23,832 nucleotides of DNA from a virus: the IMG/VR virus record IMGVR_UViG_3300037153_000161, positions 1-23,832 of that record; one strand, 5' to 3'. This document shows, one piece after another, positions 7,435 through 21,620 of this stretch (position 1 is the first letter of the stretch; each line of letters opens with the position of its first letter). Under the pieces are notes generated by a model. It was not told where the DNA came from. It saw nothing but the letters and a program-made list of their open reading frames with translations, and made no database searches. Both the position numbers and the translations under genes were made by a program.

Positions 7435-7796
7435 CGAGCCTCGGCGAACAGCTGCACCAATGCAGCCTGGCGAACCCGGCGCCGCCGGCGCCCGACGGCC
7501 TCGGCGGCTATACGCAGGCCTGGATCCCGCTCGCGCCGGCCAAGGCCTACTACGCGATCGCGCCGGCGCTCGCGCAGAACCTCGAGCGTAGTGTCGCGGC
7601 CACGGTGGAGGCCTCGGCGGCGTGGCTGCTCACGGGCGCCGTGCATGCCGGCGTGAATGAATACACGCGGATCGCCGTCCTCGAGGGCGTGTACGCCGGG
7701 AAATCGTTCGACGTGCGATCCGTGCAGCGCGTGCTCGGCGATCGCGGCGAGCTGCCGTACCGGCACGCGCTCGGCTGCTCCGAGGTCGTCACGTGA
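7431..7796 (+). CDS. Head-tail joining / head closure protein (121 aa)
   Basis: Start ATG 7431 overlaps the previous stop (ATGA). The protein is beta-rich, with a segment WIPLAPAKAYYAIAPALAQNLERSV early and DVRSVQRVLGDRGELPYRHALGCSEVV at the end. In SPP1 gp16/HK97-type head closure proteins the C-terminal 'V..V.D..er...l.L.C.ev' strand pair is the usual signature and it fits here. Position between connector and gp10-like gene agrees. It should plug the connector ring and join the tail. Confidence 0.75.
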   Translation: MTSLGEQLHQCSLANPAPPAPDGLGGYTQAWIPLAPAKAYYAIAPALAQNLERSVAATVEASAAWLLTGAVHAGVNEYTRIAVLEGVYAGKSFDVRSVQRVLGDRGELPYRHALGCSEVVT

Positions 7797-8245
7797 ACGC
7801 GCGGATCGAATTTAACGGCCTGTACGAGCTGAAACAGGCGCTCAAAAATTTGCCCGACGATCTCGTCGCCGGCGCCGGCGCGATCGTGTCGAACGCCGCC
7901 CGGAGTGCCGCGGCGGCCGATTTCCGCCAGTATCCCGTCGGCAAGCCGCACATGCGGAAAGGCCATCGCGTCGGCGGTGGGACGTTGAAAAACAGTCTCC
8001 GGCTCGAGGAATACGCGCTCCAAAAAGGCGACGTGTCGTACTCGCTGCGCAATGTGGCGCCGCACGCCACGATCTACGACAAAGGCACGCTGCCGCGGCG
8101 CACGCTCAAGGGCAAAGATTGCGGCGTCATGCCGGCCGGCCAGGTCTTTATCCCGAACGCGATCCACTATCGCCAGGAGATGCGCGAAAAGCTCGTCGCG
8201 TACGTGCGCGCCGCCGGGTTTCAGATCGGAGCGTTCGGCGTATGA
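7793..8245 (+). CDS. HK97 gp10-like neck/tail component (150 aa)
   Basis: Starts at GTG 7793 within GTGA, overlapping the upstream stop. The opening IEFNGLYELKQALKNLPDDL followed by an alanine-rich helix is the standard start of HK97 gp10-family proteins; the beta-rich C-terminal half (APHATIYDKGT, then PAGQVFIPNAIHYRQEMREKLV) also fits, including the final helix. Length is typical. It belongs to the neck, between head closure and the tail terminator, and is translationally coupled on both sides. Confidence 0.82.
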   Translation: MNARIEFNGLYELKQALKNLPDDLVAGAGAIVSNAARSAAAADFRQYPVGKPHMRKGHRVGGGTLKNSLRLEEYALQKGDVSYSLRNVAPHATIYDKGTLPRRTLKGKDCGVMPAGQVFIPNAIHYRQEMREKLVAYVRAAGFQIGAFGV

Positions 8246-8682
8246 CGACGCCGGCGATCTCGAGCCTCGACGCCGCGGTCGTCGCCCAGCTCGCGCAGGA
8301 TCCCGACGTCCTCGCGTTTGTCGGGCCGGCGCCCGGCGGCGTGTATTTCGACGTGGCGCCGGAAGGCGCCGATCGCTATGTCGTGGTCGTGCTCGAGAAC
8401 TACAGCGTGCTCCGCGCCATGCCCGGCGGCGTCGTCGTGCTGGAAACGTGCACGTATGCGATCCGGGCGTGGGCACAGGATGTGAGCGCGCAGGCCGTCG
8501 AAGCCGCGGCGCTCGCGATCCGGCGCGCGCTCGAGCGCGACGACTACCCGATCACGGGCTACACGCTCAAACGATCGCAGCATGTCGACTATCTGCGGAA
8601 AAACGCCGTCGACGATACGACGGGCCGCACGTGGCAGAACTTCGGCGGCCGGTACGACGTCCAGGCCGCTCCACTCGCGTAA
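8242..8682 (+). CDS. Tail terminator / tail completion protein (146 aa)
   Basis: Start ATG 8242 overlaps the preceding stop as ATGA. The protein begins with a short helix and a DPDVLAFVG segment, then alternates strands and a long amphipathic helix (AQAVEAAALAIRRALE), ending in NFGGRYDVQAAPL. This is the layout of DUF3168/tail-completion proteins (lambda gpU-type) that cap the tail tube and set the interface to the head. Location immediately ahead of the major tail protein supports this. The call rests on fold pattern and synteny, not on a unique motif. Confidence 0.72.
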   Translation: MTTPAISSLDAAVVAQLAQDPDVLAFVGPAPGGVYFDVAPEGADRYVVVVLENYSVLRAMPGGVVVLETCTYAIRAWAQDVSAQAVEAAALAIRRALERDDYPITGYTLKRSQHVDYLRKNAVDDTTGRTWQNFGGRYDVQAAPLA

Positions 8683-8697
8683 AAGGAGAGATCAGCT

Positions 8698-9123
8698 ATG
8701 ACCCCGCCGCCCACTCCGCAAGCCATCCACGGCAAAGACGGCGCCGTGTACTGCTCGACGACGGCCGCCGGCGCGCTCGCGCTCGTCGCGCTGCTAAACA
8801 AGTGGTCGCTCGACATGTCCTGCGATTATGTCGACACGACGCCGTTCGGCTCGCCCAACAAGACGAGCGTGAAAGGGCTGCCCTCGTATAAAGGCTCATT
8901 CGAGGGATTTTTTTCGGAGGAAGACGACACCATGTTCGACGCCGCCAACTCGCCGGACGGCTGCAAGCTGCAGATCTTCCCGAAGGAAGGCGGCGCGCGC
9001 AACTGGGGCGGGCCGGCGTGGCTCGACGTGTCCGTCGACGGCTCGACGACGACGGCCGTCACGGTCAAAGGCTCGTTTCAGGCCAATGGCGCCTGGACGG
9101 CCGACGGCGCGCCGCCGGCGTAA
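8698..9123 (+). CDS. Major tail tube protein (141 aa)
   Basis: Preceded by the strongest Shine-Dalgarno in the structural block (AAAGGAGAG, 8683-8691), as expected for a protein needed in many copies. The sequence is beta-rich and lacks cysteine-based or catalytic motifs. It contains TTPFGSPNKTSVKGLPSYKG followed by a SFEGFF strand, FDAANSPDGCKLQIFP and a final VKGSFQANGAWTA strand, which match the small tube proteins of siphoviruses: a sandwich with a loop for hexamer stacking. Size is small but in range. Position before the chaperone and tape measure is decisive. Confidence 0.82.
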   Translation: MTPPPTPQAIHGKDGAVYCSTTAAGALALVALLNKWSLDMSCDYVDTTPFGSPNKTSVKGLPSYKGSFEGFFSEEDDTMFDAANSPDGCKLQIFPKEGGARNWGGPAWLDVSVDGSTTTAVTVKGSFQANGAWTADGAPPA

Positions 9124-15677: not shown

Positions 15678-15854
15678 TTACGCCGCGTCGTCGTCCAACC
15701 GCGCGAGGAGGGCGGCGGCGGCCTCGGCCTGGCGGAGACGCGCCGTCCGGGCGTCGACAGGTTCATGCAATTTTTCGTGCGCGATCGCAATGAAGGTGCG
15801 CAGGGCGTCGCGGACGATGGCTACTTCCGCGGCCGTCAGGCTGAGGATCGTCAT
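15678..15854 (-). CDS. Small helical protein (58 aa), hypothetical
   Basis: Reads leftward from ATG 15854-15852 to TAA at 15680-15678. The protein starts MTILSLTAAEVAIVRDALRTF and continues as two amphipathic helices with a loop (HEPVDARTARLRQAE). Similar short 'TAAE-AIVRDALR' proteins occur near repressors in phages of GC-rich hosts, but I cannot name a function. A start further upstream (15890) is possible but gives a less protein-like N-terminus. Its ATG shares the tetramer CATG (15852-15855) with the divergent gene on the + strand, so initiation on one strand may affect the other. Confidence 0.6.
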   Translation of the reverse strand: MTILSLTAAEVAIVRDALRTFIAIAHEKLHEPVDARTARLRQAEAAAALLARLDDDAA

Positions 15855-16044
15855 GCTGACAGTATTCGCGATCGCGGCCTCGAGCTGCACGGCGCTCGCG
15901 CTCGAGCGATCCCTGCACGTCCCGCCGCGGCTCGTCTGTCCCGACGGGGCGCCCGTGCAGCTGCTCGAGGATCCGAGCTGCCGCGGCGGGATCTGCGGGT
16001 GGACGTGCGAGCCCGATCGCTGGGCTCAGACGGCTCCGCGGTGA
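15853..16044 (+). CDS. Secreted cysteine-rich miniprotein (63 aa)
   Basis: A GAGGA Shine-Dalgarno at 15843-15847 is well spaced before ATG 15853. The N-terminus MLTVFAIAASSCTALA is a short Sec-type signal peptide with an ALA cleavage motif before LERS. The predicted mature part of about 45 residues has four cysteines (in RLVCPDG, DPSCRGGIC and GWTCEPDRW), suitable for two disulfides outside the cytoplasm. No family is recognised. A true lipobox is absent. It reads rightward inside a segment whose other genes read leftward, and its 3' end overlaps the repressor gene tail by 19 bases. Possible roles are superinfection exclusion, lysogenic conversion or a small envelope-acting lysis factor; all are inference. 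Confidence 0.6.
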   Translation: MLTVFAIAASSCTALALERSLHVPPRLVCPDGAPVQLLEDPSCRGGICGWTCEPDRWAQTAPR

Positions 16045-17536: not shown

Positions 17537-17679
17537 TTAGGGTCCTGTGGAAATGTGGAAAACGATCCGGAATCGACGACGGGGCCACGCATGAACGCTC
17601 GAGCGCAAGTGACCGTCCGATCAGCGGAAACGGGATCGCGACGCGCGGCCTCGAGGGTTCGCCGGCGGCCTGTGGAAAA
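17479..17679. other. Putative phage replication origin (iterons, palindrome, DnaA-box-like sites)
   Basis: GCAATGCT occurs at 17479-17486 and 17490-17497, an 11-base spacing. A perfect 14-bp palindrome AGTACGTACGTACT lies at 17504-17517. TGTGGAAAT (17546-17554) and TGTGGAAAA (17554-17562) are tandem, and TGTGGAAAA recurs at 17671-17679; the complement TTTTCCACA differs by one base from the DnaA box TTATCCACA. The segment lies between the DUF1376 and RusA-like genes and is locally less GC-rich (17495-17565). Origin function is inference. Confidence 0.5.
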
Positions 17680-18130
17680 GCTGTCGACGGCGACGGCGAC
17701 GTATGTGGCGCCGCTCGACTGCTGGACGTTCACACTCCCGCGGCTGCTCCGATCGCCCAATGCCACATACTGGCGTCACTGGCGGATCAAACAACGCGAG
17801 GCCAAAACGTGGCGCGCGCTCCTGCTGGCGGCCTTGCTCGCCGATCCGGCCGGCGCGCCGATCGTCCGGATCGCCTTACAGGGCGGGCGTGTGATCACGG
17901 CCGGGCCGCGGCGGGTCCGGATTGAGCGGTGGTGTGCCCGGCCGCAACAGTTCATCCGGGATCGCGACAATCTCGCGTTCTCGGCGAAACATCTCGTCGA
18001 CGCGCTCGTCGGGATCGGGCTCTTGCACGATGACGATCCGGCCTGGGCGGATCGGCCAATCCCGACACAGCATGTCTCCGCGCAGGGCCGGACCTATACC
18101 GTCGTCGTCGTCGAACCGTGGAATCCGTAA
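17591..18130 (+). CDS. RusA-like Holliday-junction resolvase (about 142-179 aa)
   Basis: Cuts branched DNA left by recombination or replication before packaging. The family pattern is clear: an N-terminal strand and FTLPRLLRSPNATYWRHWRIK, then RDRDN (two catalytic aspartates), a lysine eight residues on (SAKHLVDALV) and the final LHDDD acid cluster, ending in a VVVVEPW strand. E. coli RusA is 120 aa. The start is uncertain: GTG 17555, ATG 17591 and GTG 17705 are all in frame. The first 50 residues from 17555 look unstructured and overlap the probable origin, so GTG 17705 may be the real start. The RusA-like gene is the only recognisable DNA-metabolism enzyme in this block. Confidence 0.78.
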   Translation: MNARAQVTVRSAETGSRRAASRVRRRPVEKLSTATATYVAPLDCWTFTLPRLLRSPNATYWRHWRIKQREAKTWRALLLAALLADPAGAPIVRIALQGGRVITAGPRRVRIERWCARPQQFIRDRDNLAFSAKHLVDALVGIGLLHDDDPAWADRPIPTQHVSAQGRTYTVVVVEPWNP

Positions 18131-18139
18131 GGAGGCCGT

Positions 18140-18439
18140 ATGAGCAGCTGGGCGCTCTTTCATGATCCGCTCTCGTGGTTTGGCAACGAGCCGATCGCCA
18201 ATTCACAGTTTCAGTCGTTCGACGACAAAGGCGACGGCCTCGTCGGGCTCAAGCGCGCGGATGGATCGTACGTCTCGCAGAATCCCAATCAGTACGGCGT
18301 GTTCTCGAGCGCGCCGGAGTGCAAGGCCTACGAGACATTTGGCGGCGGCGCCGGCGTCGGCGTCAAAACGAGCTGGACGCGCCCGGAGCAGGGCGACAAG
18401 ATTTTTTCGTACTTCTGCTGTCAGCTGCCGAATTGCTGA
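18140..18439 (+). CDS. Small beta-rich protein, fascin/trefoil-like repeat (99 aa)
   Basis: A strong Shine-Dalgarno (AAGGAGG, 18129-18135) precedes ATG 18140, so high expression is expected. Residues about 33-67 (GLVGLKRADGSYVSQNP, then a short strand and CKAYETF) resemble one repeat of fascin/FRG1-type beta-trefoil folds, where 'V.L...G.YV' is followed by 'W/YE.F'. The C-terminal part has paired cysteines (FCCQLPNC) and aromatic strands. One repeat is too short for a whole trefoil, so it may trimerise or pair with another protein. Carbohydrate binding is a guess from fold analogy. It opens the accessory block that includes the glycosidase-like gene. Confidence 0.6.
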   Translation: MSSWALFHDPLSWFGNEPIANSQFQSFDDKGDGLVGLKRADGSYVSQNPNQYGVFSSAPECKAYETFGGGAGVGVKTSWTRPEQGDKIFSYFCCQLPNC

Positions 18440-18442
18440 CGC

Positions 18443-18673
18443 ATGGTGAAGGCCGTCGGCACACAAACGAACGGCGATCGGTTTCTCATTCTCGGCCTGA
18501 GCGCCGAGAACCTGCGGCAGCTGCAGGCCGATCGGACGATCCTCGTCGAGCTGGCCGATTTTGCGCCGCACCTAGCCGCCGGTGAGCCGGTCGCGCGGAT
18601 CGTGCTGTTTACGGGCGCGACGGAAGCGGAAATAACGACCACACTCCAGGCCATTTTTCAGACACAGAGGTAA
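18443..18673 (+). CDS. Hypothetical small protein (76 aa)
   Basis: Begins at ATG 18443, three bases after the preceding stop, and precedes the large TIM-barrel-like gene by six bases. The sequence reads as two strand-helix units: GDRFLILGLSAENLRQLQADRTILVELAD, then PVARIVLFTGATEAEITTTLQAIFQ. Very similar 'LGLS-EN..RL..' and 'LFTG-TE..I...L' patterns recur in small phage proteins of GC-rich hosts, usually annotated hypothetical. The domain looks like a compact alpha/beta fold without catalytic residues. Role unknown; operon context suggests partnership with its neighbours. Confidence 0.65.
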   Translation: MVKAVGTQTNGDRFLILGLSAENLRQLQADRTILVELADFAPHLAAGEPVARIVLFTGATEAEITTTLQAIFQTQR

Positions 18674-18679
18674 ACGCCC

Positions 18680-19804
18680 ATGCGCGCCGCCTTGTTGCAG
18701 CCGACACAGCCGAGCGTGATCCACGTCCCGCCGATCGTACGGCCGCCGCTGCCGCTCCCGTTGCCACGGGCCGATCGGGATGGCGTCCCGTGGGCCGATG
18801 GCCTGCCGTGGGACGGCGGCCAGGCGCCGACGTCGCGCGACTACTGCCGGGCGGATGCGTGGGGCGTCGTCGTCGACGGCGCCCCGTGGGTGCCGGGCGC
18901 CTCGAGCGCGTATCCCGAACGGATCCTGACGTGGTTTCTCGATCGCTGGTCGCTCGAGTGGCAACGCCGGATCCTGACGACGTACGCCGGCCTCGGCTAC
19001 ACGCATTTTTTTCTGAGCGTGGCCGACAGCCTGGCGGACGTCAATCAGCCGGCCGGCAGCCCGCCCGGCGCCGGGAAATCCCTGAGTGAGTTTCGATCGA
19101 CGTGCGAGCTCGTGAAATCGTACGGCCTGTACGTGGCCGTCATGCTCGGAAGCAAGTACTTCGCGACATTTCCGCGCGAGCCGGGCCTCTACTGTCCGCA
19201 CGACATGGATCCCGGCCAGTGGGCGGCGTATGCCGATCCGCTGCTCGACGCGCTCCTGCCGGTCGTCGATGAAGTGGTGCCGGCGTGGGAGTGGAATCTC
19301 TGGTGTCGGACGGCGCCCGACGCGATCACGGCGATCAAACATATCGGCGATCGCTGCCACGCCGCCGGCGTCAGCTGCTGGCTGCATTTCAGCCCGCACT
19401 ATACGAGCTGGTTTGCCGACGGCGATCCGCGTGGCCGGTTTGGGTTCTATGACGATCTGAACACGTCAATCGACGGCCTCAACTATCAGGGCGTGAGCGA
19501 CTGGACAACGCAAGACGCCGCCGATCGCGCGGTCGATACGCTGTGGCAGTTTGCCCAGCAGCCGTATGGCCACAAATTCCGGTACTGGGAGGATCTGGCG
19601 TTTGTCATGTTCGACGGGAACCCGCAACGCGGGACGCCGCCCGCCTACACCGACGGCGTGGCCCGCGGGCCGGCCTGCACGCCGGAGGATGCGAACTGCC
19701 GCGGCTGGTACCTCATGTCGACCTATGACAACGTGAAAGGCACGGACGGAAAGATCTGGGGCTTCGGCAATGGCGGCCGGCGGCCGGACGGCTCGCGGAT
19801 CTGA
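18680..19804 (+). CDS. Conserved phage TIM-barrel-like protein, glycosidase-like (374 aa)
   Basis: The largest non-structural gene besides integrase. After a proline-rich N-terminus (residues 1-50; the PPLPLPLPRAD stretch) come alternating strands and helices compatible with a beta/alpha barrel: WQRRILTTYAGLGYTHFFLSVAD, ELVKSYGLYVAVMLGSKYF, then VVPAWEWNLWC (E204 at a strand end), SCWLHFSPHYTSWF (residues about 243-255) and DGLNYQG (275-281). The end is WGFGNGGRRPDGSR. The W-E-W and H-F-S-x-H strand ends are where glycoside hydrolases place catalytic acids. Relatives appear in soil-phage and prophage sequences as hypothetical proteins. It has no signal peptide. It may be a virion depolymerase or the missing lysin. 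AGAGG at 18666-18670 is its Shine-Dalgarno. Confidence 0.65.
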   Translation: MRAALLQPTQPSVIHVPPIVRPPLPLPLPRADRDGVPWADGLPWDGGQAPTSRDYCRADAWGVVVDGAPWVPGASSAYPERILTWFLDRWSLEWQRRILTTYAGLGYTHFFLSVADSLADVNQPAGSPPGAGKSLSEFRSTCELVKSYGLYVAVMLGSKYFATFPREPGLYCPHDMDPGQWAAYADPLLDALLPVVDEVVPAWEWNLWCRTAPDAITAIKHIGDRCHAAGVSCWLHFSPHYTSWFADGDPRGRFGFYDDLNTSIDGLNYQGVSDWTTQDAADRAVDTLWQFAQQPYGHKFRYWEDLAFVMFDGNPQRGTPPAYTDGVARGPACTPEDANCRGWYLMSTYDNVKGTDGKIWGFGNGGRRPDGSRI

Positions 19805-19806
19805 TC

Positions 19807-20103
19807 ATGGCGCCGCAGACACTCCGCCTCGACGACGACGATCGATACCTGCGCCTCAGTGATCTAGTGCGGTACTCGACGCTCTCGATCCGCACCCTGC
19901 GCCGCTATATGCACGACGCGATCGATCCGCTGCCGGTCCACCGGATTGGCGGGTGTCTGCTCGTCAAACGATCGGAATTTGACGCCTGGCTGCGCCGTCG
20001 GGAACAGCGCGACGCCGATCGCGGGCCGGCGCCGGCGACCGGGTTTGCGCGGGCGCAGCTCCTCGAGCGCGTCGCGCGCGCCGTCAAGGCCACGCGCGGG
20101 TAA
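19807..20103 (+). CDS. Xis/AlpA-like helix-turn-helix protein (98 aa)
   Basis: Residues about 14-65 form a winged helix-turn-helix of the excisionase/MerR type (HTH_17): YLRLSDLVRYSTLSIRTLRRYM, followed by a wing IDPLPVHRIGGCLLVKRSEFDAWL. The C-terminus is Arg-rich and low in structure. The gene starts two bases after the upstream stop and is followed by the RHH protein and integrase, so excisionase (directionality factor) is the most likely role; it could also act as a transcription factor. Confidence 0.78.
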   Translation: MAPQTLRLDDDDRYLRLSDLVRYSTLSIRTLRRYMHDAIDPLPVHRIGGCLLVKRSEFDAWLRRREQRDADRGPAPATGFARAQLLERVARAVKATRG

Positions 20104-20118
20104 ATGGTGCCGTTGTGA

Positions 20119-20130: not shown

Positions 20131-20298
20131 ATGAAACACACCGAGACGGTCAATCTCCGGATCCCGGCGGACATGCGCGCCGCCCTCGACGCGATCAAGA
20201 TCCGCGACGGGATCCCGTACAGCGAACAATTGCGCCGCGCGCTGCAGCTCTGGCTCGATCAGAAGAATCCGCCGGCGACGAAGAAGGCGAGGCGCTGA
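20131..20298 (+). CDS. Ribbon-helix-helix protein (55 aa)
   Basis: A short gene with ATG 20131 and TGA 20296-20298, sharing one base with the integrase ATG (TGATG). The product opens with the strand ETVNLRIPADM, then helix RAALDAIKIRDG, a turn and helix IPYSEQLRRALQLWLDQK, a canonical CopG/Arc-type ribbon-helix-helix, followed by a basic tail KKARR. Probably a dimeric DNA-binding protein that controls the integrase or takes part in recombination as an accessory factor. No Shine-Dalgarno is present; see the leaderless promoter entry. Confidence 0.8.
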   Translation: MKHTETVNLRIPADMRAALDAIKIRDGIPYSEQLRRALQLWLDQKNPPATKKARR

Positions 20299-21542
20299 TG
20301 GCGCGCGCGCGCGGGATCGTCGTCACGCTCTACCACGACCACACGCCCGGCCGCAAGAAACCATGGGCGCTCCTATGGCGCGCCTACAAGACCGGACACG
20401 TCGGGCCGGGCAAGCGCCTGTCGATGTGGTTTACGACGGAGGCCGAGGCGACGGAAGCCAAGATTGAGCTCGAGAAAGGGCTGGCCGCCGACGCGCCGCC
20501 GCCGGACGTCCCGACGGTCAGTCTCCGCCGCGTCGATTCCTTGGGCGCGCTCGCCGGGGAACATCCGGATAAGACGAAGCTCACGGGGTGGTTGGCCGAC
20601 TGTCAACGGACGCTCGCCGGCGCGACCGTGCGCGGCTACCGGAGCGCGCTGCGCAATTACCTGGCGCCGGAGCCCGGCCATCGTCGGTATCCGGGCCTCG
20701 GCGATCTCGTGATCAGCGACGCGACGTGCTCCCCGATCGTCTTCCACGAGTATCTTCTCGCGCTCCACGCAGCCGGCGTGAGCCTGAGCATGCGGCGCCG
20801 CCTGCAACGGGTGCTGAGTGCGTTCTGCACCTGGGCGAAATTCGCCGGCAAGCTGACGGGACACAATCCGTGCTTCGATCTTGGCCGCAAGATTCGGCAG
20901 AAGGGCGAGCTCGTGGTGGAGCATCCGCCGAACCCCTTCACGGCCGCCGAGGTCGGGCAGCTGTTCGATCAGATCGCGGCCGTCGAGCCCGACTATGTGC
21001 CGTACTTCCAATTTCTGCTGGATGTCGGCGTGCGGGTGGGCGAGGCCGGCGCGCTCCCGTGGACGGCGATTGACTGGACGGCGCGGACGGCGACGATCGC
21101 GGCGAGCTACAGCCCGACGGAAGGCGCCGATAAGGATACGAAAACGCATCGCGTCCGCGTCGTCCAGTTGAGCGGCCGCGTGCTCGAGCAGCTCGAACGC
21201 TGGCAGGCGGAGCAACGCAAGGAAGCCTTTCGCCGCGGCCGGCCGACGCCGCGCCATGTGTTTACGACGCGCCGGCTCGCTCGGCTGACGCCGAACAGCA
21301 GTGTGCGCGATGTCCTCGCGCGATCGATGGCGGCCTGCGGGATCGCCGGGCATACGCTGCACGACTTTCGCGATACCTTCGCGACGTCGCACCTCGTTAA
21401 GAACTGGGATAGCAAGCTGGCCTGGGTGAGCAATCAACTCGGGCATGCCGATCCCCAGGTGACGGCGAAGCACTATTACCGCTACCGGCCGACGACGGCC
21501 GCGGCGAGCTTTGCCGACGATATCGTGACATGGACGAGCTGA
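20298..21542 (+). CDS. int: Tyrosine-family integrase (414 aa)
   Basis: Catalyses site-specific integration and excision. The start ATG 20298 is coupled to the RHH gene; the frame is open further upstream, but that part is the RHH gene read out of frame. N-terminal residues 1-60 form an arm-binding-like domain (KKPWALLWRAY then RLSMWFTTEAEA). A SAM-like core-binding domain spans about 95-190. Catalytic residues: R246 in LDVGVRVGEAGALPW, K282, H355 and R358 in HTLHDFRD, H383 in QLGHAD, and nucleophile Y393 or Y394 in KHYYRY. Length and motifs are complete, so the enzyme should be active. The gene ends five bases before the tRNA gene that points towards it. Confidence 0.96.
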   Translation: MARARGIVVTLYHDHTPGRKKPWALLWRAYKTGHVGPGKRLSMWFTTEAEATEAKIELEKGLAADAPPPDVPTVSLRRVDSLGALAGEHPDKTKLTGWLADCQRTLAGATVRGYRSALRNYLAPEPGHRRYPGLGDLVISDATCSPIVFHEYLLALHAAGVSLSMRRRLQRVLSAFCTWAKFAGKLTGHNPCFDLGRKIRQKGELVVEHPPNPFTAAEVGQLFDQIAAVEPDYVPYFQFLLDVGVRVGEAGALPWTAIDWTARTATIAASYSPTEGADKDTKTHRVRVVQLSGRVLEQLERWQAEQRKEAFRRGRPTPRHVFTTRRLARLTPNSSVRDVLARSMAACGIAGHTLHDFRDTFATSHLVKNWDSKLAWVSNQLGHADPQVTAKHYYRYRPTTAAASFADDIVTWTS

Positions 21543-21547
21543 GGGCT

Positions 21548-21620
21548 AGCCGGCGCGCGGACTTGAACCGCGAACCCCCGGTTTACGAAACCGGTGCTCT
21601 ACCGATTGAGCTACGCCGGC
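21548..21620 (-). tRNA. tRNA-Thr (anticodon CGT)
   Basis: A complete 73-nt cloverleaf on the - strand. The 7-bp acceptor stem is formed by 21614-21620 and 21549-21555. The D arm has the stem GCTC/GAGC and loop AATCGGTA; the anticodon stem is CCGGT/ACCGG with loop TTCGTAA, giving anticodon CGT, which reads ACG. The T arm is CGCGG/CCGCG with loop TTCAAGT. Discriminator U, no encoded CCA. Thr/ACG is by far the commonest Thr codon in this genome (5 of the first 6 Thr codons of the capsid gene). The 3' end faces the integrase stop five bases away, the usual geometry of a tRNA attachment site. Confidence 0.95.

Follow-up and report, generated by a model that had tools for sequence, protein, structure and literature searches.

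What is the function of a gene that lies, in a temperate phage, between a resolvase gene and an excisionase gene, and whose 374-aa product matches no nameable sequence family? The window, i.e. the whole stretch of DNA analysed here, is a 23.8-kb (23,832 nt) IMG/VR virus record. The phage encoded is a tailed and temperate one, with genes for terminase, protease-capsid, portal and tail. A CI-like repressor gene directed leftward is also present, and so are RusA-like and primosomal genes, an integrase gene and an excisionase-like HTH gene. An earlier note had singled out a block of three ORFs of 99, 76 and 374 aa, and had proposed that the largest one encodes a glycosidase-like TIM barrel, possibly an undescribed lysin, depolymerase or virion enzyme. 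In our best reading, the 374-aa protein represents a glycosidase family that has not been described before, with a known fold and a predicted mechanism that is also known; most likely it is a polysaccharide depolymerase.

The three ORFs are all present on the + strand. The 99-aa gene (18140..18439) has an AAGGAGG (18131..18137) 5' of its ATG, i.e. the strong Shine-Dalgarno sequence attributed to it, and the block directly follows the RusA-like resolvase gene (17555..18130, + strand; phrog_34, E 3.4e-13). The 76-aa ORF (18443..18673) comes between it and the 374-aa gene (18680..19804), directly downstream of which are, on the same strand, the HTH excisionase-like gene (19807..20103; phrog_66, E 1.6e-7) and then the tyrosine integrase gene (20298..21542, the longest ORF reading beginning at 20115; Pfam Phage_integrase, E 2.6e-14, and phrog_1). 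The order RusA, 99-aa and 374-aa is kept in contigs L007 and L002, both of which are devoid of the 76-aa ORF. The latter had no tblastn match in any other fetched locus; the small hypothetical gene included in the block by the earlier note is thus there, but it is private to the window phage, and the conserved block does not include it. As to the 374-aa gene, it is real and under purifying selection: its product is 87% identical to that of L007, 77% to that of L002 and 67% to that of L003, with dN/dS values of 0.21, 0.27 and 0.29, respectively. The 99-aa gene is likewise under purifying selection (dN/dS of 0.09 versus L007 and 0.29 versus L002).

The fold of the 374-aa protein was predicted with AlphaFold2, using an alignment of 27 sequences (the matches of an earlier and poor model, built with 8 close relatives and having a pLDDT of 43, were set aside). 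The model, a confident one (pLDDT 85, pTM 0.87), is an eight-stranded TIM barrel, as had been supposed; the strands, at residues 56-59, 109-113, 151-157, 198-202, 232-236, 266-269, 299-302 and 358-362, form a complete (beta/alpha)8 barrel. The two sequences previously pointed out as strand ends are found in such places, WEWNLW (residues 203-208) directly after strand 4 and HFSPH, which begins at residue 236, at the end of strand 5; GFGNGGRRPDG is indeed near the C-terminus. Comparison with the PDB by Foldseek and VIA-align returned almost exclusively glycosidases, and the best 50 VIA-align rows (Z from 17.1 to 15.7) were essentially all clan GH-A-type enzymes. Among them were 4n0r, a putative glycoside hydrolase from Bacteroides (Z 17.1, rmsd 4.0, 245 residues aligned), the fungal GH53 galactanase 1hjs (Z 16.7, rmsd 3.3, 242 aligned) and PslG, a GH39 member (4zn2; Z 16.6, rmsd 3.9, 265 aligned), as well as GH1 and GH5 enzymes. 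PslG is a biofilm-exopolysaccharide hydrolase. Since the top rows differ by no more than about 1 Z, they designate no single GH family or substrate. The likeness, with Z values of 16-17 over 240-270 residues, is one of fold: identity to these enzymes is only about 10%. Among viral models (BFVD), the best fold match was A0A6J5MJP7, an uncharacterised TIM-barrel phage protein (E 1.2e-9, TM about 0.55); A0A6J5RDT7, annotated as GH5, was another one (E 1.9e-6). They are 17% and 12% identical to the 374-aa protein, respectively. The description of the protein as glycosidase-like, and as a member of no nameable sequence family, was therefore apt: neither the protein nor its relatives had a relevant match in Pfam or PHROGs, sequence searches against the PDB gave spurious matches only, and no profile of a named GH family was matched in the Pfam and PDB searches. 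No signal peptide was seen either, in agreement with the earlier note.

Relatives of the 374-aa gene were found in about 45-50 IMG/VR contigs. Direct searches yielded seven viral contigs; a degenerate DNA pattern (WE-x-[ND]LW plus HF[ST]) revealed the wide family, which was then extended by profile. No true relative emerged when the proteins of the window, L004, L018, L055 and L079 were compared by tblastn with 50,697 phage records, and none was found in the plasmids searched, nor in scans of prokaryote genomes carried out with the motifs of the window clade only. Two apparent relatives were discarded, LucasX as a chance match outside the gene and a 'Listeria phage' match because it is a ProA-type bacterial gene. 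The idea that L002 is the same sequence as the window was also rejected; the sequences differ and the common length of 23,832 nt is a coincidence.

In clan GH-A, strands 4 and 7 carry the catalytic residues at their C-terminal ends (PMC5725463). In the model these positions are occupied by E204, two residues past strand 4, and E304, two residues past strand 7 (codons 19289-19291 and 19589-19591). Both glutamates are invariant in 45 out of 45 family proteins, and so are K159, H236, W244, Y269, Q270 and D286. As the search pattern had contained W203, E204, L207, W208 and H236, it was partly responsible for their invariance in the first 27 proteins; hence 18 of the 45 proteins, from divergent clades, were recruited independently, without the E204 motif and using the C-terminal part only. 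In this larger set, residue 203 is W in 31 proteins, F in 13 and G in one, and positions 207 and 208 vary too. Among the first 27 proteins, the invariant columns were enriched at strand C-ends (8 out of 24, P 9e-5, with no concentration at strand N-ends), a figure inflated by the five columns out of 24 (203, 204, 207, 208 and 236) that the pattern had included, so that the test on 45 proteins is the fair one. The residue before E204 departs from clan GH-A usage: an Asn usually precedes the acid/base Glu, save in some GH-A families, and it is replaced by Trp, Phe or Gly in the barrel family.

E204, already singled out in the earlier note, is thus likely to be a catalytic residue, and E304 is added as its predicted partner. 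That note had also named what would speak against its proposal, a predicted structure without a barrel or without acids in the pocket; the model displays the barrel and an invariant glutamate pair at the 4/7 positions. A TIM barrel may nevertheless be retained for its fold, in a non-catalytic tail protein with a structural or receptor-binding (lectin-like) role: there are annotated phage TIM barrels that are not enzymes, one of which, a tail-sheath domain, is found low among the viral fold matches, and the barrel gene often adjoins fibre genes. We regard this as quite improbable, because both glutamates and the pocket-face residues do not change among 45 diverse proteins while the residues next to them do.

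For the 99-aa protein, which had been described as trefoil-like, the family profile gave significant matches to CBM92 structures only (7zoh, E 7.1e-8, and 7zoi, E 1.7e-8, i.e. CpCBM92A and B), and these matches cover two of the repeats in the target structure. CBM92 is a beta-trefoil with three sites, a preference for beta-1,6-glucans and a WExF motif in each repeat, and CBM92 domains accompany glycoside hydrolases (PMC11039641). The 99-aa protein shares with them the trefoil-type repeat, a near-WExF motif (YETF) and the association with a glycosidase. It differs from them in being a stand-alone gene product with one clear repeat instead of three, the three WExF subdomains that define CBM92 not being present, and in having Tyr in place of the ligand-stacking Trp. 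All clear matches to its family in 44 loci (window, L002, L007, L074, L077 and L078) are directly upstream of the barrel gene, and in all of these save L074 they form a separate gene. The barrel of L079 carries a CBM92-like stretch fused to its N-terminus. Elsewhere the neighbour is of another type: in L085 and L093, what directly precedes the barrel gene is a small Ig/CarboxypepD-like gene, and in L060 the barrel itself is fused to a domain of Ig/CarboxypepD type, according to a weak Pfam match. The recurring design is that of an enzyme with an exchangeable accessory domain, either separate or fused, and the 99-aa protein is probably a glycan-binding partner.

At 7705-8907, directly upstream of its barrel-family member, contig L074 encodes a 400-aa predicted glycosidase ending with a CBM92-like domain; GNEP and TEFG motifs could be read in it by eye, and no Pfam match was obtained.

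The setting of the barrel gene differs among relatives. In most tailed-phage relatives it comes after the tail and fibre genes, at the tail/lysis end of the genome, with tail-fibre, holin-like and beta-helix genes as neighbours; in many of them the genes that follow it encode a beta-helix protein (in L055, one that matches Pfam Beta_helix), along with a Cys-rich lipoprotein and a small protein of TM type. The early-type position is found in the window clade, L075 and L076 only, and is thus a peculiarity of the clade. The assignment of the block to the early region rather than to the tail genes holds for the window, where it extends from the RusA-like gene to the excisionase and integrase genes, but not for the family, which is mostly in the tail region. 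A tree unites the early and tail forms, the window, L007, L002 and L075 grouping with L003-L005 (support 100/97). The DNA similarity of the window to L003 and L006 is limited to the barrel gene, which indicates that this gene moves between phages. Two members, in L077 and L024, belong to low-GC phages (GC3 of about 0.2-0.4) and the remaining ones to high-GC phages, which suggests spread across distant hosts; in L077 too, a CBM92-like gene is just upstream.

The location between replication-type and integration genes in the window, L007 and L002, and the transfer of the gene between otherwise unrelated phages, would both suit an auxiliary or lysogenic-conversion gene, the product of which would degrade environmental glucans, such as soil beta-glucans, for the host and have no role in virion entry. 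Beta-glucans are bound by CBM92 (PMC11039641), and a chitosanase from a soil virus is an active enzyme (PMC9485262). This explanation is unlikely in our opinion, given that most relatives are at the tail/lysis end of phage genomes, that the 374-aa protein has no visible secretion signal and that the prokaryote scans, within the scope given above, produced no relative.

The lysin proposal, i.e. that of an endolysin or a virion-associated peptidoglycan hydrolase in a phage without another recognised lysis gene, draws on two observations: none of the scanned window ORFs matches a PHROGs lysis family, the 374-aa protein included (which has no Pfam match either), and some relatives have the barrel gene 3' of holin-like single-TM genes. 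However, the barrel gene of L079 and that of L073 directly follow a separate GH108/endolysin-type gene, and GH-A-type glycan hydrolases, among which we know of no peptidoglycan-hydrolase family, are the structural neighbours of the 374-aa protein. Of the activities put forward in the earlier note, we therefore keep the depolymerase as the most likely one and consider a lysin very improbable.

Altogether we find it rather probable that the 374-aa protein is a GH-A-like glycosidase cutting a host extracellular polysaccharide, and that the 99-aa protein holds it on the glycan; hydrolysis of a host surface or matrix polysaccharide would be the most economical reading. The barrel would cleave its substrate with retention, in the clan GH-A manner, E204 acting as acid/base and E304 as nucleophile. 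The 99-aa protein, the gene of which is just upstream, would attach to this glycan as well and keep the enzyme there. The most likely role would be to depolymerise the host capsule, exopolysaccharide or biofilm matrix, the enzyme acting either from the virion or in soluble form once freed at lysis; incorporation into the virion is less obvious for the window phage, where the barrel gene is away from the tail genes. More tentatively, and as a possibility to which we give somewhat less than even credence, the family as a whole could constitute a new glycosidase family of uncultured phages, the glycan-binding part of which is either a small separate upstream gene (CBM92-like or Ig-like) or fused. 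Enzyme and binding part would thus make up an exchangeable depolymerase of two parts, passed between phages that differ in tail type, and between genome positions.

A function, two named predicted catalytic residues and a binding partner can thus be proposed for a family present in dozens of uncultured phage contigs and unrecognised by Pfam and PHROGs. It may help viruses to pass the sugary coats around bacteria and, if active, would be a candidate for a new family of glycoside hydrolases and a tool for opening bacterial exopolysaccharides. It would also call for caution in viral ecology, where genes of this kind might be classed as 'auxiliary metabolism' though they are usually among tail genes.

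A few additional features deserve mention. A small Cys-rich lipoprotein-like family (CPDG.PV..L.D..CP.G.CG.TC.P.RW) recurs near the barrel gene and the tail end; its window member (15853-16044, + strand) closes the tail module, and relatives lying near the barrel gene of their phage are found in L056 (12113-12319), L064 (11883-12086), L066 (4822-5070) and L093 (7748-7960). Just after the barrel gene or a short way beyond it, L055 (10499-11809), L058 (10057-11382) and L068 (10069-11403) encode modular, tail-spike-like proteins with a shared N-terminal segment and different C-terminal parts, a beta-helix in L055 (Pfam) and a propeller-like part in L068 (weak). In the window, the 621-aa protein encoded at 3200-5065 matches families of the head maturation protease as well as of the major head protein and is a protease-capsid fusion. 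The 3' end of the integrase gene adjoins a complete tRNA-Thr (CGT) gene, a likely attachment site, in the window (21548-21620, - strand) and in L007 (8175-8247, - strand). Lastly, the HNH and TerS genes, at opposite ends of the window, are neighbours in L007, so that the window phage may be near complete.
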